NCBI RefSeq assembly: GCF_030142045.1
Contig: NZ_CP126242.1
Span: forward strand, 1,984,001 to 2,048,000
Origin: Arthrobacter sp. zg-Y919
GTDB taxonomy: Bacteria; Actinomycetota; Actinomycetes; Actinomycetales; Micrococcaceae
Reading direction: 5' to 3'
DNA: 64,000 nt
A model generated the notes under the pieces. That model worked only from the letters and a program-made list of their open reading frames with translations. It did no database searches and was not told the origin of the DNA. Within the stretch, counting starts at the first letter, position 1. The number at the start of each line of letters is the position of its first letter. Both the position numbers and the translations under genes were made by a program. This document shows, piece by piece, positions 3,472-38,301 of the stretch.

Positions 3472-5193
3472 TCACTGGAGATGCCCCGCCGAATCCAATA
3501 ATTCCTCGGCGTGGGCACGGGCCGACGCCGAGTCCTCCTGCCCTGCGAGCATCCGGGCGAGTTCCTTGATGCGCTCCTCCTGGCCCAGCACCCGGACATC
3601 GCTGGCCGTGACGCCGGTACCGTCGTCGGTGGACGTGGAAGTCTTGATCACGCGGATGTGATGGTCGGCAAACGCCGCCACCTGGGGCAGGTGGGTTACC
3701 ACGATCACCTGCACATGCTTTGCCAGCATGGCGAGCCGGCGGCCGATTTCGACGGCGGCCTTGCCGCCGACGCCTGCATCCACCTCGTCGAAGATGAACG
3801 TGGGCACCGGGTCCACTGCTGCCAGGACCACTTCGATCGCCAGCATAACGCGGGAAAGTTCGCCGCCTGAGGCACCCTTGCCCAGGGGCCGGGCCGGAGC
3901 GCCGGGATGCGGTGCGAGCAGGAAGGAAATGCTGTCGGCACCGTGCGGTCCCGGCTCACCGGTCGGTTCCACCTCGATGACCAGATTGGCGTCCTTCATG
4001 GCCAGCGCCGTCAGTTCGTCGCTGACCCGCTGCGCGAGTTCTGCTGCGGCATCGGTACGGAGTTTGGTCAGGGCCGCTCCCCGGGTGGCCAGGCGTTCGG
4101 CGAGGACGCCTATTTCCGCTTCGAGGGCGTCGATCCGGGAGTCGTCGGAGCTGAGTTCGGCCAGCCGCTTGGCGCTTTCGCCGCTCCACTCCAGGACCCC
4201 GTCGATCGAAGGGGCATACTTGCGGACCAGTCCCGCCAGATCGGCGCGGCGGGATTCCACTTCCGCGAGCCGTTCAGGTCCTTCGGAGTCCAGGGAGGCT
4301 CCGTAGCTGGCCAGCTCGGTGGCTATGTCTGCGAGGATGTACCCCACCTCGGCCAGCCGCTGTCCGGACGCGGCCAGGGCCGGGTCATGCTCCCCTGCGG
4401 ACTCCAGCTGGCGTTTGGCGGCGTCCACCAGCGAGGTGGCGTCGCCGCCGTCGGCAAAGTCGTCGGCGATCAGGGCCGCATGGGCACTCACCGCGGCGGT
4501 GCGCAGCTCCTCGAGGTTGCTCAGGCGCATGGCCTCCGCCTTGAGGGAGTCGTCCTCCCCCGGCTGTGGATCCACCGCCTCGATTTCCTCCAGCGCGGCG
4601 GTCAGGTACTCGGCTTCCCGGAGCCGGTCCCGGGCCTGGTCCCGGAGTTCCGACAGCTCCTTGGCCGCGGCGCGCCAGCGGGCGTAGTCCTCACGGTAGG
4701 CACCGAGTTCGGCGGCCAGCGGGGCACCTGCGTACTTGTCCAGTGCCTCCCGCTGGGCCGCGGCACTCTTGAGGCGCAGCTGATCGGTCTGGCCGTGGAC
4801 CACCACGAGGTGCTCGCCCACTTCCGCCAGGACGCCTACCGGGGCGGACCGTCCGCCCACGTGTGCACGGCTGCGTCCGTCGGCATTGACCGTACGGACC
4901 AGCGTCAGTTCGGCCGCGCCGTCGTACTCTTCAAGCTCCGCTCCCGCTTCGCCCGCGCGGACCGCCGCAGGGCTCCGCGGATCCACGTGCACGAGCGCCT
5001 CAGCGACGGCGGACTTCGCACCGATGCGCACGGCGCCGGCGTCTGACCGGGCACCTAGGAGCAGTCCCAGGGCGGTGATCACCATCGTTTTGCCGGCACC
5101 GGTTTCACCGGTCACCACCGTGAAGCCTGGGCCCAGGTCCAGTGTGGCGTCGGTGATGACACCGAGGTCCCTGATCCGGATTTCCTCAATCAT
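3472..5193 (-). CDS. recN: DNA repair ATPase RecN
   Basis: 573 residues. SMC-like ATPase acting in double-strand break repair. It starts [20 protein letters not shown], with Walker A GETGAGKT near residue 31, a long coiled-coil middle (alanine/glutamate-rich, residues about 150-370), the signature [18 protein letters not shown] and Walker [14 protein letters not shown] in the C-terminal half. The ATG overlaps the nadK stop as ATGA, so nadK and recN are translationally coupled. All expected motifs are intact. Confidence 0.95.
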
Positions 5194-6260
5194 GCGACAA
5201 AGCCTCCGCTGTCCGAAACCGCTGTGTCACCGGTTGATGTGCCGGCAGCTTCCGGGCTGCCGGTTACTGCACCGTTGCCGGCGGAATCCGCGTTCCGGTC
5301 CCCCGGCCCCGGTATGGAGCTGAGCTGGGTTCCGGCAGTGGTCGCCGGGGCCGGACCGCGCCACCCATGGGTGGGGAGCTGGAACTTGCGCACCAGTCGT
5401 TCTGAGAAAGGTGTCAGGTGGGTGCGTGCCAGGCGGACCGGAGTCTTGGAGCGGGTCACTTCCACCCGGGAGCCCGGGGGCAGGTCGATGCTGCGCCGGC
5501 CGTCGCACCACAGCACTCCGGCGGCGTCCGTACGGGTCAGGATCTCCACGGCCAGCACCGAGGTGGGCGATACCACCAGCGGCTTGGCGAACAGGGCGTG
5601 GGCGCTGATGGGCGCCAGCAGCAGGGCTTCAACCTCCGGCCAGACCACCGGGCCGCCAGCGGAGAAGGCGTAGGCGGTGGAGCCGGTGGGTGTTGCCAGC
5701 ACAACGCCGTCGCATCCGAACGAGCTGATGGGGCGGGCATCCACCTCGATGACCACTTCCAGCATCCGCTGGCGGTCGGCCTTTTCGACGGCGGCCTCGT
5801 TGAGGGCCCAGGTGCGGGCCAGGAGTTCGCCGCCGTGCCAGACCTTGACGTCGATGGTCATGCGTTCTTCGACGGTGTAGGCGCGTTCAACCACCCAGTG
5901 CACAGTCTGTGCCAGGTCGGCGCGTTCGCTCTCGGCCAGGAAGCCCACATGGCCGAGGTTGACCCCAAGCAGTGGAACATTCGTTCCGCGCACCAGTTCG
6001 GCTGCCCGCAGGATGGTGCCGTCCCCGCCAAGGACCATGCCCAGGTCCACCTCATCCAGCGCGACGTCTTCATCGAGGATCTCGGTGGGTGCCGTCAGCA
6101 CTCCGTATTCGGCCTGGATGTCTTCAAGGTCACGCCGCCGCATGACCGGAACCAGTCCCGAGGAATGAAGCTGGGTGCAGGCCTCCTGGGCAGCGGTCAT
6201 GGCGGCCCGTCGTCCGGTGTGGGCCAGGACCAGTATCCGTCTGCTCATCTGCGTCTTCAT
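5190..6260 (-). CDS. nadK: NAD kinase
   Basis: About 356 residues. Phosphorylates NAD to NADP using ATP or polyphosphate. Motifs: LGGDGTILRAAEL (the GGDG phosphate-binding loop), NLGHVGFLAE and DGVVLATPTGSTAYAFSAGG. The C-terminal 60 or so residues after the kinase fold are Gly/Thr/Ala-rich and look disordered. Three in-frame ATGs occur at 6269, 6260 and 6248. GGAGG touches the first and is 9 nt from the second, so I chose 6260; the third gives MSRRILVLAHTGR, the conserved start. It follows tlyA by about 40 bp and overlaps recN by 4 bp. Confidence 0.94.
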   Translation of the reverse strand: MKTQMSRRILVLAHTGRRAAMTAAQEACTQLHSSGLVPVMRRRDLEDIQAEYGVLTAPTEILDEDVALDEVDLGMVLGGDGTILRAAELVRGTNVPLLGVNLGHVGFLAESERADLAQTVHWVVERAYTVEERMTIDVKVWHGGELLARTWALNEAAVEKADRQRMLEVVIEVDARPISSFGCDGVVLATPTGSTAYAFSAGGPVVWPEVEALLLAPISAHALFAKPLVVSPTSVLAVEILTRTDAAGVLWCDGRRSIDLPPGSRVEVTRSKTPVRLARTHLTPFSERLVRKFQLPTHGWRGPAPATTAGTQLSSIPGPGDRNADSAGNGAVTGSPEAAGTSTGDTAVSDSGGFVA

Positions 6261-6300
6261 CCTCTTCATCCTCCGGGTGGTGCCTGCGGCATACCCATCG

Positions 6301-7161
6301 TCAGTCTTCTACCGCCGGCAACCGGTCCGCAAACCCGGCGAACGCTTCATCCACCAGCCTGGCGGCGGCGTCTTCGGCCGGAGTTCCCTCACCGTGCCCC
6401 GTTTCCGCAGGCCTTCCGGGTACGGGGCCGGGGACCTGCAGCCACATAAAGAACTCCACGTTGCCGTTCTGGCCGGGAAGCGGGCTCGGGGCAATGCCGC
6501 CGATCTCCAGGCCGGCAGCCATGGCGGCCGTCGCCACCGAGGCCACGGCAGACCGGTGCCGGGCCGGATCGGTAACCACTCCGGTCCGGTCCAGCTTCTC
6601 ACGGCCCACCTCGAACTGGGGTTTCACCATGAGCAGGAGGCTGCCGCCCGGGCGGGTGGCAGCAGCCAGCGGTCCCACCACCTTGGTCAGGGAGATGAAT
6701 GAAAGATCCGCGACCGTGAGATCGACGGTGCCACCTATGTCCTCCGGGTCCAGGTAACGGACGTTCATCCCCTCGTAGACGCTGACCCTGGGATCCCGCC
6801 GAAGCGCTTCCACGAGTTGTCCGTGCCCGACGTCGACGGCGGCGACATGCGTGGCACCAGCGCGGAGCAGGACGTCGGTGAACCCTCCGGTGGAGGCCCC
6901 GGCGTCCAGGCAGCGCAGTCCGACCGGGTTAACGGCGGGGAACGCCGCGAGGGCACCGGCGAGTTTGTGGCCGGCGCGGCTGACGTAGTCGGGCAGACCG
7001 TCGTCGAGCACTTCCAGCCGTTCGCCGGCGTCCACCGGAGCCGAGGGCTTGGCGGCGGGCTTTCCGGCGCGCAGGACCCGTCCTGCGGCGATCAGCTTTG
7101 CTGCCTGGGTGCGCGAGCGTGCCAGCCCGCGCGTGACGAGTTCCTGGTCGAGTCGTGGCAT
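6301..7161 (-). CDS. tlyA: TlyA-family rRNA 2'-O-methyltransferase
   Basis: 286 residues. Members methylate 16S and 23S rRNA ribose positions; loss of TlyA gives capreomycin resistance in mycobacteria. An N-terminal S4 RNA-binding domain (MPRLDQELVTRGLARSRTQA to about residue 60) is followed by VSRAGHKL and an FtsJ-like methyltransferase fold with SAM motif CLDAGASTGGFTDVLL, then VADLSFISL and VKPQFEVGREKL. The C-terminal 40 residues are variable. The ATG is 2 bp from the stop of the small upstream gene. Older annotations call the family hemolysins; the enzyme role is better supported. Confidence 0.94.
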   Translation of the reverse strand: MPRLDQELVTRGLARSRTQAAKLIAAGRVLRAGKPAAKPSAPVDAGERLEVLDDGLPDYVSRAGHKLAGALAAFPAVNPVGLRCLDAGASTGGFTDVLLRAGATHVAAVDVGHGQLVEALRRDPRVSVYEGMNVRYLDPEDIGGTVDLTVADLSFISLTKVVGPLAAATRPGGSLLLMVKPQFEVGREKLDRTGVVTDPARHRSAVASVATAAMAAGLEIGGIAPSPLPGQNGNVEFFMWLQVPGPVPGRPAETGHGEGTPAEDAAARLVDEAFAGFADRLPAVED

Positions 7162-7163
7162 GC

Positions 7164-7412
7164 CTAGTCTGCTGTCCGGGGGAAGATTCCGGGTACCGGC
7201 GCGGGGACAGCATGCCCAGCTTTCGGCTCAGTATTCGGCTCAGTGTTCAGCTCGGTGAGCAGCGCGTCATGCAGTCCTGCGTAAACGGCCGCATGGCCGG
7301 CCACGGGCTGGGCCGCCAGCGGAGGCAGGACATCGAGGAGGGAGTCAACGGCGGCATCATCCGTGGTGGCCGGAGCCTGCGGCCATGGCTGTGCCGGCTG
7401 GGATTCAGGCAT
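7164..7412 (-). CDS. Small conserved protein between HAD phosphatase and tlyA
   Basis: 82 residues, beginning MPESQPAQPWPQ. No domain recognised. The middle (DAAVDSLLDVLPPLAAQPVAGHAAVYAGLHDALLTEL, given here only as the span residues 19-53) could form two helices; the ends are Pro/Thr/Glu-rich and probably disordered. An AGGAGG ribosome site 8 nt before the ATG supports translation. Its position between the phosphatase and tlyA matches the small Rv1693 of M. tuberculosis, also of unknown function, suggesting a conserved slot in this operon. Confidence 0.75.
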   Translation of the reverse strand: MPESQPAQPWPQAPATTDDAAVDSLLDVLPPLAAQPVAGHAAVYAGLHDALLTELNTEPNTEPKAGHAVPAPVPGIFPRTAD

Positions 7413-7475: not shown

Positions 7476-8498
7476 CTAGCTGCGGCCGGTGACAGTCCAG
7501 CGGATCTCCGGGGTAAGCGCCGCTGCGGCGTCCGGCCGGGCTGCCCACCATGCGGCACAGCCGGCACGCCAGCTGTCCAGGTCCGAGGAATCCCCGGCTA
7601 TCACGACGACGGTGTCCTCCACCCAGGCCAGTGCCTGGCCGCAGCGGTATTTTCCAGCCTCGGGAACGGGCACCGGATACGGTTCGAAAAGCGCCGCCAG
7701 GTTCTCGATGAGGTAGACCGGCCGCTCCGGTTTCCGCGCCGCCAGTGCAGTCAACGGAGTGTCGACGCCGGTGAGCACCAGTGCGGTGTCAAAGCCGGCG
7801 TTGGTTCCGCCCAGGATGTCGGTGTCCAGCCGGTCCCCCACCACAAGCGGACGGTGGACGTCGAGGTGCCGTGCCGCCGTCGTAAACAGTGGCGCCTCCG
7901 GCTTGCCTGCGACGAAGGGAACCCGGCCCGTGGCTGCGCCGACTGCAGCCACCAGCGTGCCGTTGCCGGGCGCGATGCCGCGGGCCTGCGGGATGGACAG
8001 GTCCGTGTTGGTGGCCACCCACACGGCTCCGCGTCCGACGGCGAATGCGGCTTCGGCCAGATCGGCCCATCCCAGGGATGGGTCGAAGCCCTGGATGACG
8101 GCGTCGGGCGCGTCATCCGCCGAGTAGACCCGCACCAGTCCCTGGGCCTCGACGGCGGCAGCCAGGGTTGCGCTGCCGGTCACCAGCACCTTGGCCCCCG
8201 CGGGAACCTTGGAAGCCAGCAGTTCCGCCCCCGCCTGCGCGGACCCGAAGACATTTTCCGCCGTGGCGGGTGCTCCGAGTTCGCGCAGGTGTGCCGCAAC
8301 CGTCTCCGAAGAGCGTGAGGCGTTGTTGGTGACGTAGGCCAGCTGGACCGATACATCGGCCAGCCGGTCCAGCGCCTCCACGGCCCCCGGTATCGCGTGC
8401 GGTCCGGCGTAGACCACGCCGTCCAGGTCGGAAAAGACCGCGTCGTAGCCGGAGACCAGTGAAGGGTTAGTCGTCAAGACGCTGCGGCCCCGTCTCAT
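7476..8498 (-). CDS. HAD-IIA family phosphatase, glycerol-3-phosphate phosphatase-like
   Basis: 340 residues. Aspartate-nucleophile phosphatase: motif I FSDLDGVVYAG (both catalytic aspartates), a C2-type cap including YVTNNASRS, and motif IV VGDRLDTDILGG. About 60 residues follow the HAD core (from YRCGQALAWVEDTVVV), as in M. tuberculosis Rv1692, reported as a glycerol-3-phosphate phosphatase. The ATG at 8498 overlaps the upstream TPR gene by 32 bp; a TTG at 8477 (LTTNPSL) is an alternative start. Substrate is inferred. Confidence 0.88.
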   Translation of the reverse strand: MRRGRSVLTTNPSLVSGYDAVFSDLDGVVYAGPHAIPGAVEALDRLADVSVQLAYVTNNASRSSETVAAHLRELGAPATAENVFGSAQAGAELLASKVPAGAKVLVTGSATLAAAVEAQGLVRVYSADDAPDAVIQGFDPSLGWADLAEAAFAVGRGAVWVATNTDLSIPQARGIAPGNGTLVAAVGAATGRVPFVAGKPEAPLFTTAARHLDVHRPLVVGDRLDTDILGGTNAGFDTALVLTGVDTPLTALAARKPERPVYLIENLAALFEPYPVPVPEAGKYRCGQALAWVEDTVVVIAGDSSDLDSWRAGCAAWWAARPDAAAALTPEIRWTVTGRS

Positions 8499-10683
8499 CG
8501 GCGTCTTCGCGGGCAGTTTCCTCGTCGTCGTCGTCGTAATTGAAATCGGACACTACGACTTCCACGGCCTCGCCGTCGTCATTTACGTCGCTGTCTTCGG
8601 TGAGGAGGCCTTCCTGCTCATCCGTGGGAAGCGCGTCCACCTCTTCATTTGGATCGAGGTTGTCCTTCGGAGCCTCTTCGGCGGGTGCGAAGTACGCGCC
8701 GGAGCGGTCCTCACGGGCCTCGGGACGACGCTTGGGACGTTCCTCTTCCTCAGGCACGAGGTCGAAGATTTCCGGCTCCGCAAAGTCGCCGAAGCCCAGG
8801 GCTTCGTCAGCGCGCAGGGCCTGCTTCTGCCACTTCTGCGCTTCCTCGCTGCGGCCGGCAACTTCCAGCGCGTCGGCGTAGGCACGGAAGAGGCGCGGGC
8901 TGTAGGAGAAGGCCCGGTTACGGTCCAGCTGCGGGATTTCCAGTGCTGCAACAGCGGCATCAAACTGACCCATGTCCATCCGGGCACCCGAGACGACGAT
9001 GGCCAGATCCACCTGTCCGGCAGTATCCAGGTCCTTGGCGTCATCGGACCGGGCCATGTCCAGGGCCTTTTCCGGATGGCCCAGACCGCGTTCGCAGTCG
9101 GCCATCATCGGCAGGTAGGCATTGGAACCGCTGATCCGGCGGTAGGTGCGGAACTCACGCAGCGCCTCACCGAAGTGCTCGGCTGCGTAGGCGGTCAGGC
9201 CGACAGCCTCGCGGACCACTGCCATGCGTCCGCCACGACGGCTCGCGGCAAGGGCGTGCTGGAATGCCAGCTCCGGTTCGTCGTCAATCAGGCGGCCTGC
9301 CATCACCAGGTGCTTGGCAACCCACTCGCTGTTGACTTCCTCCAGGTTGCGCAGCTGGGCGCGGGTGACCTTGTCCAGTTCCTGCCCGGTGACGTCCTCA
9401 TCGATTTCCGGTGAACGCTCACGGTCGGGGCGGTTGGCGCTACGCAGGTCCTTGGCGTTGCGGGGCCGAGCTGCGGCCGGGGCATCGTCACGGCGGAAAG
9501 ACGGGCGGTCCGAACCGTGTTCGGGCCGGTCGCCGCGGGGCGGACGGCTGTCACGCTGCGGACGGCTGTCACGCTGCGGACGGCGGTCACGCTGCGGACG
9601 GCGGTCATCGCCACCGAAGGACGGCCTACGGTCGCCGCGGTCGCCGAAGGGCTTACGCTCACCGCTGCGCTCCGAGAAAGGCTTACGCTCACCATCACGC
9701 TGCGGACGATCATCACGCGAGAACGGCTTACGATCCCCACGGTCGCCAAAGGGCTTACGCTCACCATCACGGGCCGGACGACGGTCATCGCCACCGAAGG
9801 ACGGTTTACGGTCCCCACGGTCACCGAAGGACTTACGCTCACCATCACGGGCCGGACGGCTGTCACGCTGCGGACGATCATCACGCGAGAACGGCTTACG
9901 ATCCCCACGGTCACCGAAGGACTTACGCTCACCATCACGGGCCGGACGGCTGTCACGCTGCGGACGATCATCACGCGAGAACGGCTTACGATCCCCACGG
10001 TCGCCAAAGGGCTTACGCTCACCATCACGGGCCGGACGACGGTCGTCGCCACCGAAGGACGGTTTACGGTCCCCACGGTCACCGAACGGCTTACGCTCAC
10101 CATCACGCGGCGGACGGCTGTCACGCTGCGGACGATCATCACGCGAGAACGGCTTACGATCCCCACGGTCACCGAAGGACTTACGCTCACCATCACGCGG
10201 CGGACGACGGTCATCGGCGCCGCGGCTGGCGCGGTCATTTCGCTCCGCACGAACCCCGAACGACGGACGACTGTCCCCATCACGGGCGGGACGACGGTCA
10301 TCGCCACCGAACGACGGCTTGCGATCGCCACGGTCGCCGAAAGGCTTCCGCTCACCGCTGCGCTCGGTGAACGGCTTGCGCTCACCATCACGGGCGGGGC
10401 GGCGGTCGTCGCTGCCACGGGCGGGACGATCGCCGAAAGCGGGCTTGCGGTCCTTTGAAAACGGCTTGCGCTCCGAGGAGGCCCCCCGGTCGCCGAAAGA
10501 CTTCCGTTCGCCGTCGCGTGCGGGCCGGCCGCCAAAGGAGGGCTTGCGGTCTTCGAACCGCTTGGGAGCGTTGCGGTCGTTCGTCGCGGGGCGTCCGCGG
10601 TCGTCGCGCCGGTCTGACGAGCTGCCGCTGGAAGAATTGCTTCCTTCGCCGCCGCGGTGATCCCTGTTATTTTGCTCTGACAT
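8467..10683 (-). CDS. TPR protein with long Arg/Gly/Asp-rich repetitive N-terminal region
   Basis: 738 residues. From about residue 45 to 405 it consists of imperfect repeats of 26-30 residues built from GERKPFGDRG, DRKPSFGGDDRRPARD and DRKPFSRDDRPQRDSRP. This is strongly charged, lacks hydrophobic core residues and is surely disordered, resembling eukaryotic RGG/RDR RNA-binding regions. Residues about 430-640 form a helical TPR-like domain (SEWVAKHLVMAGRLI, ALAASRRGGRMAVVREAVGL, GRSEEAQKWQKQAL). The tail is highly acidic. ATG at 10683 has AGAGG about 10 nt upstream. The TPR part matches Rv1691 in position; the repeat region looks like a lineage addition. Function unknown; RNA or ribosome association is inference. 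Confidence 0.85.
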   Translation of the reverse strand: MSEQNNRDHRGGEGSNSSSGSSSDRRDDRGRPATNDRNAPKRFEDRKPSFGGRPARDGERKSFGDRGASSERKPFSKDRKPAFGDRPARGSDDRRPARDGERKPFTERSGERKPFGDRGDRKPSFGGDDRRPARDGDSRPSFGVRAERNDRASRGADDRRPPRDGERKSFGDRGDRKPFSRDDRPQRDSRPPRDGERKPFGDRGDRKPSFGGDDRRPARDGERKPFGDRGDRKPFSRDDRPQRDSRPARDGERKSFGDRGDRKPFSRDDRPQRDSRPARDGERKSFGDRGDRKPSFGGDDRRPARDGERKPFGDRGDRKPFSRDDRPQRDGERKPFSERSGERKPFGDRGDRRPSFGGDDRRPQRDRRPQRDSRPQRDSRPPRGDRPEHGSDRPSFRRDDAPAAARPRNAKDLRSANRPDRERSPEIDEDVTGQELDKVTRAQLRNLEEVNSEWVAKHLVMAGRLIDDEPELAFQHALAASRRGGRMAVVREAVGLTAYAAEHFGEALREFRTYRRISGSNAYLPMMADCERGLGHPEKALDMARSDDAKDLDTAGQVDLAIVVSGARMDMGQFDAAVAALEIPQLDRNRAFSYSPRLFRAYADALEVAGRSEEAQKWQKQALRADEALGFGDFAEPEIFDLVPEEEERPKRRPEAREDRSGAYFAPAEEAPKDNLDPNEEVDALPTDEQEGLLTEDSDVNDDGEAVEVVVSDFNYDDDDEETAREDADETGPQRLDD
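9530..10560 (-). repeat. Imperfect 78/90-bp tandem repeats coding for the Arg/Gly/Asp-rich region
   Basis: Repeat units of about 78 and 90 bp, multiples of three, encode the disordered region of the TPR protein. Bases 9821-9910 and 9911-10000 are two identical adjacent 90-bp copies, showing recent duplication. Other units differ at scattered third positions and by alternation of KPF/KSF, SRP ARD/PPRD and FSRDD/SFGGDD modules. The unit length keeps the frame, so copy number can change without breaking the gene. Confidence 0.9.
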
Positions 10684-10993
10684 GCTGCTGAGTTCCTCTC
10701 GTCGTGAGCCGACCAACGGAATTACTGCAGTCGCTCGTCACTATGTACCTGTAATGAAGATGTAAAAGTCATGGGAGGCGGTCGCGCCTCAGGGTAATTC
10801 TAGTGCAGTGGCAGTCCAGGTGCCGATTCAACAGGGGATCAAAGCGGTCCGATGCAGGTGAGTCTCGACACCACGGGCACCTGAGCGGCCCCAACTCAGG
10901 ACGTTCGAACGCCCGACGGCGGCCAAAGGAACCGGCCAGCAGCTCCCCGAAGGTCAGGCCCGCCCGGGCTATGCCCGGTGGGTTAAAGAGGAA
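10684..10993. other. Intergenic region between TPR gene and rRNA terminator
   Basis: About 310 bp with no gene I can support. On the minus strand a weak promoter-like pair (TTTACA, 17 nt, TAGTGA, near 10743-10771) lies 60-90 bp before the TPR gene and could drive the downstream block. Short open frames here lack ribosome sites and family features. Confidence 0.4.
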
Positions 10994-11021
10994 GAGCCCG
11001 TACCAGCACTGGTACGGGCTC
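10994..11021 (-). terminator. rRNA operon terminator
   Basis: Perfect 13-bp stem (GAGCCCGTACCAG and its complement) with a two-base centre, 20 bp beyond the 5S gene. On the minus strand it is followed by TTCCTCTTT, a pyrimidine-rich tract. It ends the rRNA transcript before the TPR gene. Confidence 0.8.
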
Positions 11022-11041
11022 ATCCTGTTATTCAAATATTG

Positions 11042-11158
11042 TCCGGCGGTGACCTACTCTCCCACATCCTCCCGGATGCAGTACCATCGGCGCTGTGGGT
11101 CTTAGCTTCCGGGTTCGGAATGGGACCGGGCGTTTCCCCCACGCTATGACCGCCGTAA
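11042..11158 (-). rRNA. rrf: 5S ribosomal RNA
   Basis: About 117 nt. On the minus strand it begins TTACGGCGGTCATAGCG and ends GTCACCGCCGG, so the ends pair as in 5S rRNA. The internal CCCGAAC/CCGAACCCGGAAGC box and GGGAGAGTAGG are present. Ends are approximate. Last gene of the rRNA operon. Confidence 0.95.
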
Positions 11159-11437
11159 CCCTGCTACCCGCACCCCCGCAAAGCGGGGTGGGGAAATCTC
11201 TGGTTACAGCACGTCCCGGAACCCCTATCACGCCAAAAGACGCTGCAAGGGTGCCGGCAGTGCGGTAAAAAAGGTGAACCAACCCCCGGACAAGGGGGTG
11301 GGTTCGTGTTCCAGGTACAGCAACAACACGGGTTGTTGTCCGGGAACCACATAGTGGACGCAAGCAGCATGATCTTCAACACCCTTTATACTTTGACGGA
11401 CCGTTTGAAGTCGTGTCCGTCCAGGTGTTGTTGTGGT
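11159..11437 (-). other. 23S-5S spacer with 3' half of 23S processing stem
   Basis: 279 bp without tRNA. Bases 11346-11366 are complementary, with two mismatches, to 14675-14698 in the 16S-23S spacer, so the two flanks of 23S can pair in the precursor. This is the arrangement expected for RNase III cleavage. Confidence 0.75.
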
Positions 11438-16610
<5,173 letters not shown>

Positions 16611-16777
16611 AATGTGTTACAGACACAGTCCGGGGACCAAGGAAAATTGGTCGTCCGTCCTGCACTAAATTCGAAACCGGCTAAAAAAACCGTCCCATAC
16701 CCACGGGGTGGGCGGAAACGGCCTGTTCAACCAATCAATATAAATAAATTGGTATCAATAAACTTGGCACACTATTG

Positions 16778-37973: not shown

Positions 37974-38046
37974 GCACCTCTAGCTCAATTGGCAGAGCAA
38001 TTGACTCTTAATCAATGGGTTCCGGGTTCAAGTCCCGGGGGGTGCA
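37974..38046 (+). tRNA. tRNA-Lys(CTT), copy 1
   Basis: Complete cloverleaf: acceptor GCACCTC/GGGGTGC, D-arm, anticodon loop CTCTTAA (CTT), T-arm CCGGG/CCCGG with TTCAAGT. CCA is encoded at 38047-38049. Followed by a terminator. Confidence 0.97.
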
Positions 38047-38051
38047 CCAAC

Positions 38052-38222: not shown

Positions 38223-38295
38223 GCACCTCTAGCTCAATTGGCAGAGCAATTGACTCTTAATCAATGGGTTCCGGGTTCAAGTCCCGGGGGGTGCA
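38223..38295 (+). tRNA. tRNA-Lys(CTT), copy 2
   Basis: Identical in sequence to copy 1, with CCA encoded. The upstream 20 bp (GGTARTGTTTCATGTCGTTG) also match copy 1, so promoter and gene were duplicated together. Confidence 0.97.
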
Positions 38296-38301
38296 CCAAC
38301 G

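Follow-up and report, generated by a model that had tools for sequence, protein, structure and literature searches.

An arginine-rich, TPR-containing actinobacterial protein encoded behind the rRNA operon: a probable RNA-binding factor

Introduction

The RGG/RG-rich RNA-binding proteins of eukaryotes carry disordered tails that are rich in Arg and Gly, contain Phe, are net positive and are built of repeats, and RG-rich proteins also occur in the nucleolus. TPR domains, by comparison, usually bind proteins. Here we describe a protein of Arthrobacter sp. zg-Y919 that joins an Arg-rich N-terminal tail to a TPR domain and an acidic C-terminal tail, and which we suggest may be an RNA-binding factor tied to rRNA. 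Its gene was analysed within a stretch of 64,000 nucleotides (nt) from contig NZ_CP126242.1 (positions 1,984,001 to 2,048,000 of assembly GCF_030142045.1), referred to as the window. It lies on the minus strand, with its ATG at window position 10683 and its stop at 8467, and encodes 738 residues.

The closest described system is mycobacterial. The gene order there is lprJ, Rv1691, Rv1692, Rv1693, tlyA, ppnK, recN (PMC3072309), and rrnB, a mycobacterial rRNA (rrn) operon, sits behind tyrS (PMC10218544). MSMEG_3754 was taken from a high-confidence list of proteins that came down together with RNA polymerase following treatment with formaldehyde; in pull-downs FLAG-MSMEG_3754 gave no DNA, while HupB and three other proteins did, and the authors remarked that MSMEG_3754 may be RNA-associated, adding that a small amount of DNA could have escaped (PMC7092591). 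It is also present in a table of ClpC1 interactors (PMC10433963). Neither of these two papers assigns it a function in the text available, and Rv1691 is mentioned once in a further paper (PMC11754781). Statements about these papers refer to the parts of their text that were available. No functional study of the Rv1691/MSMEG_3754 family was found in the literature searched, a scope that did not extend to subscription papers, preprints or supplements. A sequence-only reading of the window had suggested that the protein may be undescribed, which holds as far as an assigned function is concerned but has to be qualified by these two interaction datasets.

Results

Family membership and distribution

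The window protein belongs, as its Arthrobacter representative, to a conserved protein family of actinobacteria, the Rv1691/MSMEG_3754 group. The gene order in the window, TPR gene, HAD, small open reading frame (ORF), tlyA, nadK, recN, equals that of the mycobacterial operon in the published text available to us, the small ORF being matched by position only. In tblastn the core of the window protein is 39-45% identical to loci L034-L037 (genus label g20), with E between 3e-49 and 5e-37, and L036 is from Mycolicibacterium rutilum (100% identical protein).

Of 148 genomes of the class, 131 gave a match to the TPR core (119 of the 127 of good quality), mostly in a single copy. So did 80 of 80 genomes of the taxonomic family, where one match is partial, and 37 of the 39 genomes searched as relatives, its own genome counted. 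A single-sequence search across the phylum found it in 77 of 198 genomes. It is kept in several genomes of only 1.3-1.4 Mb from one genus. Two strong full-length copies are present in three class genomes (G257, G323 and G265), and other second matches are weak. Among the matches listed, the nearest proteins are from Arthrobacter, further ones carry the names Knoellia, Janibacter, Streptomyces, Nonomuraea and Mycolicibacterium rutilum, and a distant member comes from Actinomycetota metagenome-assembled genomes.

Domain structure of the protein

The features of the locus are collected in Table 1. Low-complexity repeats built of R, D, G, P, S, K and F extend to about residue 430. Residues 1-395 consist of 24% Arg, 17% Asp, 13% Gly and 11% Pro, and are devoid of I, L, W, C and Y. 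The tail as a whole (residues 1-430) has 104 Arg, 25 Phe and a net charge of +35, and contains the motifs GERKxF, GDRG and DDRRP 11, 9 and 6 times, respectively. RG occurs 14 times in it and RGG once, set against a range of 0 to 29 RGG in the nine relatives counted.

The TPR assignment is based on profiles and modelling. Against Pfam TPR_15 (cut-off 26.2 bits) the full-length protein reaches 25.8 bits, which is 0.4 short of the threshold, and the core by itself 30.9 bits. The AlphaFold2 model of the core, built from a 60-sequence alignment, has 12 helices, a predicted local distance difference test score (pLDDT) of 91.8 and a predicted template modelling score of 0.86, and as modelled the core is a TPR fold of paired antiparallel helices. 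In both structure comparisons of the model TPR structures lead, with MamA and consensus TPRs at the top and the peptide-binding YrrB lower. Such comparisons inform on the fold and not on the function. A profile search for solved structures returned mostly designed or generic TPR and PPR chains, and a single-sequence search for a solved relative gave none, only three chance-level matches (E 0.31 or worse). No family model dedicated to the protein was found. NCBIfam has no match at E<=0.1 for the whole protein and none at 0.001 for the core; other members have hits to generic TPR models, PEP_TPR_lipo among them (30 of 60, counted without regard to the cut-offs).

The three-part layout given to this ORF by the sequence-only reading, namely repeat part, TPR domain and acidic tail, was thus borne out by composition, the TPR_15 match, the confidence of the model and the charge of the C-terminus (net -24). 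Its description of the tail as RGG/RDR-like and disordered is right about the Arg content, and disorder is inferred from composition; the tail is not of the classic RGG type. A canonical RGG domain was accordingly rejected for this species, given one RGG triplet within 430 residues.

Table 1. Features of the locus in window coordinates.
Feature	Position	Strand	Basis or comment
RecN-like SMC-type ATPase	3472..5193	-	named from SMC_N match and position
NAD kinase	5190..6269	-	profile match
TlyA-family rRNA (cytidine-2'-O)-methyltransferase	6301..7161	-	TIGR00478, 196.2 bits, cut-off 185.8
82-residue ORF with Shine-Dalgarno-like site	7164..7412	-	sits where Rv1693 does, by position only
HAD-IIA hydrolase	7476..8498	-	32-nt overlap with the end of the TPR gene if started at its ATG; a start at a TTG (8477) would give an overlap as well
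738-residue disordered-tail/TPR protein gene	8467..10683	-	ORF with translation; differences from ten relatives favour third codon positions
Acidic C-terminal tail, residues 649-738, net charge -24	8470..8739	-	composition
TPR solenoid region, residues 420-648	8740..9426	-	modelled; profile and structure comparisons
Arg-rich N-terminal tail, residues 1-430	9394..10683	-	disorder judged from composition; tandem repeats
Near-invariant genus leader, possible GAGCGACU/GGUCgGCUC hairpin	10684..10745	-	alignment of 11 genus sequences
Promoter-like site	10797..10826	-	TAGAAT box in 11 of 11 aligned genus sequences
Terminator-like hairpin behind 5S rRNA	10994..11021	-	
5S rRNA	11041..11157	-	
23S rRNA	11433..14567	-	
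16S rRNA	15086..16612	-	

Coding status of the repeat part

At the DNA level the repeat part is a tandem array with periods of 258, 168 and 90 nt, the 258-nt period running for 2.0 copies with 96% matches and the 90-nt period for 4.7 copies with 85%. Differences by codon position were counted against ten relatives; the figures are rough, since the alignment of repeats is imperfect. Over residues 61-400 there are 26/14/93 differences at codon positions 1/2/3 from L098, one of the two nearest of these relatives; 74 of the differing codons are synonymous and 34 non-synonymous. Third-position differences lead against all ten. The bias implies that the reading frame is translated and constrained. 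A spurious ORF, or an antisense gene in the form of the 478-residue plus-strand ORF at 9224-10660, was rejected on the strength of the same bias in the minus-strand frame.

It might still be argued that the repeat tail has no function and grew neutrally out of GC-rich DNA. The repeats differ widely in number and sequence from one relative to the next (tails of 41 to 959 residues), the third-position bias is weak between the repeat copies inside the window (14/12/21, 10/7/12 and 12/12/19), and the comparison with L093 gives slightly more non-synonymous than synonymous codons (71 vs 67). These points are outweighed by the composition of the tail, kept in 150 of 151 cases, and by the preference for third positions against every relative compared, L098 included; neutral expansion is disfavoured and is considered very unlikely.

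Tails among relatives

N-terminal tails were collected from 179 loci (140 + 39), of which 21 with a contig end inside the gene and 7 with fewer than 30 residues before the core were dropped. Start codons in relatives were picked by a simple Shine-Dalgarno score, so that single tail lengths are possibly wrong (those of L145, L154, L170 and L230 look too short). Among the 151 readable tails, an Arg content of 15% or more is seen in 150, a net positive charge likewise in 150, and no more than 15% I/L/V/M/W/C/F/Y in 146. The median length is 287 residues. The sequence itself is not conserved: the repeats are of GERKPFGDRG type here, RRDDRGG type in Streptomyces and PSSGRPSS type in the 1.3-Mb genomes. 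In two mycobacterial-type loci the tail is short, with 57 residues in L053 and 41 in L054. That composition is conserved while sequence is free points to multivalent, charge-driven binding. Loss of the repeats in relatives, which the sequence-only reading had named as a finding that would count against it, is seen in form but not in substance: both the length and the sequence of the repeats change freely, but an Arg-rich tail remains in all but one case, sometimes of only 41-57 residues. In L097 the tail is encoded upstream, in what seems to be a different reading frame from that of the TPR core, by a frameshift that is either real or an assembly error.

The C-terminal tail shows the opposite charge. 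Among 100 loci examined, all 72 C-terminal tails of at least 30 residues are net negative. The net charges of the two tails are anticorrelated (rho -0.63, n 100; with one locus per N-terminal tetrapeptide, rho -0.57, n 52), in both cases with kinship ignored.

Arginine-rich regions elsewhere in the genome

As a background, Arg-rich, hydrophobic-poor 60-residue segments were counted in 464 kb of the same genome (the window and 20 further stretches, 389 ORFs). The window protein has 397 of them, by far the most. It is followed by the C-terminal tail of a DEAD-box helicase (86), an OTC ORF (79) and the N-terminal tail of a ThrE-family exporter (36), the only three checked with Pfam. The Arg-rich part of the OTC ORF is probably due to a misplaced start, given that no domain of this ORF is reached before residue 194. 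Rho (159) and, more weakly, RNase E (36), both picked on purpose, also contain such segments. The Rho of this genome (L191) has an Arg/Asn/Asp-rich stretch of about 270 residues with short RENNRDRDNN-type repeats.

One alternative is a protein-protein scaffold or chaperone adaptor, in which the basic tail would meet acidic proteins, such as those of Clp complexes, and RNA would have no part. This would suit a TPR domain, given its usual partners, fold neighbours such as MamA and the peptide-binding YrrB, the presence of an acidic tail, and an Arg-rich tail on the ThrE exporter. The listing of MSMEG_3754 among ClpC1 interactors (PMC10433963, in the part available) agrees with it. It accounts poorly for the fact that the longest comparable tails of this genome, within the sample, are on RNA enzymes, and for the reported association with the RNA polymerase fraction (PMC7092591, likewise in part), and we regard it as unlikely. 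Binding to DNA as a nucleoid protein is more unlikely still: a disordered tail of basic charge can be expected to bind polyanions of every kind and a RecN-like gene is in the cluster, and yet the FLAG-tagged mycobacterial protein brought down no DNA in an assay where HupB and three others did, subject to the authors' warning about small amounts (PMC7092591, as available).

Linkage to the rRNA operon

The start of the TPR gene lies about 360 bp past the 5S end of a 16S-23S-5S operon on the same strand. The main set used to examine this arrangement comprises 60 loci from 58 low-contig genomes, 54 in the class (12 from the genus of the window) and 6 beyond it. A same-strand 5S gene is present upstream within 1 kb in 49 loci, farther away in 7 and absent in 4; the 49 comprise 45 loci from the class (of 54) and 4 from beyond it (of 6). 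The median spacer from 5S to start is 128 nt among loci within 1 kb. In 80 named loci, 5S was within 1 kb in 52 and farther in 3, those with no 5S seen being 23 with less than 2 kb of upstream sequence and 2 of Nonomuraea. For the taxonomic family, 40 of 80 loci were picked for upstream DNA and 39 were readable: 5S is within 1 kb in 17, farther in 1, and too little DNA is available in 4.

A tyrS fragment is found upstream of 16S in 22 of the 33 loci with at least 600 nt there, so that the ancestral order was probably tyrS-rrn-TPR-HAD-tlyA-nadK-recN. In L104 tyrS stands beside the TPR gene without an rrn operon. Downstream, within the DNA available for the 54 class loci, HAD is present in 40 and TlyA in 38, and none of the four neighbours in 6. 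In two genomes of one genus (L061/L062 and L076/L077) the TPR gene and a complete rRNA operon are duplicated as a 6.7-kb unit, 99% identical, in which homology stops at the stop codon of the TPR gene or about 20 nt before it. The spacer can be very short, about 66 nt from 5S end to ATG in L061 and about 63 nt in L081, with a terminator-like hairpin inside. This leaves little room for a separate promoter, and read-through from rrn is predicted in such lineages.

It is concluded that the rRNA neighbourhood is widespread and probably ancestral, though not universal. The location right after the rRNA operon, pointed out from the sequence alone, therefore stands for the window and is common in relatives without being a rule.

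These data bear on the reading that the protein is a general ribonucleoprotein (RNP) or RNA-decay adaptor, whose tail and TPR domain bind mRNA, Rho, RNase E or helicase complexes and whose rRNA neighbourhood is only inherited. It would fit the Arg-rich parts that Rho, RNase E and the DEAD-box helicase of this genome have in common, the reported recovery of MSMEG_3754 with RNA polymerase (PMC7092591, in the part available) and the many family members that lost the rRNA neighbourhood yet kept the gene. It is harder to reconcile with the persistence of that neighbourhood beyond the class (4 of 6 loci) and with duplication of the gene together with the operon in one genus, and interaction with decay enzymes was not seen in the published interaction data as far as these were available. 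We consider it possible, if rather unlikely.

Neighbouring genes and upstream region

The methyltransferase gene, said in the sequence-only reading to be cotranscribed with the TPR gene or next to it, belongs to the same HAD-tlyA-nadK-recN cluster but is separated from it by the HAD gene and the small ORF. Its product scores 168.8 bits against the equivalog NF049952, below the cut-off of 250.

About 60 nt ahead of the ATG are almost invariant in the 11 aligned sequences of the genus, and this leader is a possible autoregulatory element. An element of the leader, GAGCGRCU...RGUCnGCUC, recurs in certain further genera of the family. The view that the leader is a proven structured RNA is unsupported: the hairpin pairs in 97% of alignment cells but without both-sided changes. 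Compared with shuffled sequences, the leader in the window has only a slightly more favourable fold (z -1.66, 8 of 200 as good), and no Rfam family reached its gathering score there. Elsewhere in the window, two tandem tRNA-Lys(CTT) genes with equal Rfam score are present on the plus strand at 37974-38049 and 38223-38298.

Discussion

The best reading of these results is that the protein is an RNA-binding RNP factor tied to rRNA, and we hold it with about even confidence, because tail composition is conserved while sequence is free, because most of the other Arg-rich regions found in this genome belong to RNA enzymes, because of the position of the gene, and because of the report of recovery with RNA polymerase but not with DNA. 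The old position directly behind the rRNA operon suggests action on rRNA, whether in transcription, processing or early ribosome assembly, and the protein is perhaps linked in this way to ribosome production. The N-terminal tail would bind RNA, probably rRNA or nascent transcripts, in a multivalent manner and without sequence specificity. The TPR domain would be a protein scaffold holding a conserved partner, and the acidic tail would compete with RNA for the basic tail and so tune binding. Expression would be from the gene's own promoter-like site in this genus, and possibly by read-through from rrn in others.

A more specific version is that the protein is a factor dedicated to the rRNA operon. 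The gene would travel with the operon, and the basic tail would gather on nascent rRNA, where together with RNA polymerase and modification enzymes it would form an assembly zone resembling a nucleolus. A condensate of this kind would be tuned by the oppositely charged ends of the protein, with tail length as an evolvable dial. We think this improbable.

Several observations count against an RNA-binding factor tied to rRNA. The link to the operon is dispensable, given that 17 of the 39 readable family loci have no 5S in more than 1 kb of upstream DNA (nor was tyrS or a tRNA present upstream in those 17), and the same lack of 5S over more than 1 kb is seen in L056, L079, L104, L105 and the Nonomuraea loci L142 and L148. 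The neighbourhood is an inherited gene order, so the loci are not independent, and 12 of the 54 class loci are from the genus itself. The core went undetected in 17 of the 148 genomes of the class. Of these, 8 are of good quality, and small genomes are among the misses, namely one of 1.2 Mb and four of genus g166 (1.0-1.7 Mb). The shorter Arg-rich tail of the ThrE-family exporter indicates that such tails are not confined to RNA enzymes. As for the mycobacterial evidence, the identity with MSMEG_3754 is drawn from gene order and product name rather than from sequence comparison, and mycobacterial-type tails of only 41-57 residues (two loci) mean that the report may not speak for a tail of 430. 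The RNA polymerase pull-down used formaldehyde, yielded 275 proteins including metabolic ones, and was made from a lysate treated with RNase A (PMC7092591, in the part available); MSMEG_3754, being also among the ClpC1 interactors in the table available, could be a protein that turns up often in pull-downs. The literature searched yielded no evidence of RNA binding for any family member.

Whichever reading is right, this is a near-core protein of a large bacterial class, encoded behind the rRNA operon in most low-contig class genomes examined, for which no assigned function was found. Should its tail indeed bind rRNA, the protein would be the bacterial equivalent of the eukaryotic RG-rich nucleolar proteins, and the family would be a natural experiment in the evolution of disordered tails, with constant composition, free sequence and lengths from 41 to 959 residues.

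Comparison with known systems

The Rv1691/MSMEG_3754 system is the nearest. It has the same gene order, a homologous TPR core (as seen in the Mycolicibacterium rutilum protein) and an Arg-rich N-terminal tail, and the mycobacterial-type loci L053 and L054 have an rrn operon directly upstream, as here. They differ in their N-terminal tails of 57 and 41 residues and short C-terminal tail, whereas the Arthrobacter protein has about 430 residues with repeats and an acidic tail of 90.

Likeness to the other systems is more general. MamA, YrrB and TTC0263, TPR proteins from the PDB, are 8-17% identical and have in common with the core a generic repeat fold. Rho, RNase E and the DEAD-box helicase of the same genome also have an Arg-rich, hydrophobic-poor region, but the window protein lacks a catalytic domain, and the runs of N, D and R in the Rho tail are unlike its GERKPFGDRG repeats. 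With the eukaryotic RGG/RG proteins it shares a repeated, net positive, Arg/Gly-rich tail with Phe, taken from its composition to be disordered; it has one RGG and mainly DR, RD and GDRG instead, while two Streptomyces-like members, L052 and L055, hold 15 and 20 RGG triplets. The RGG/RG group is set by composition and not by homology.

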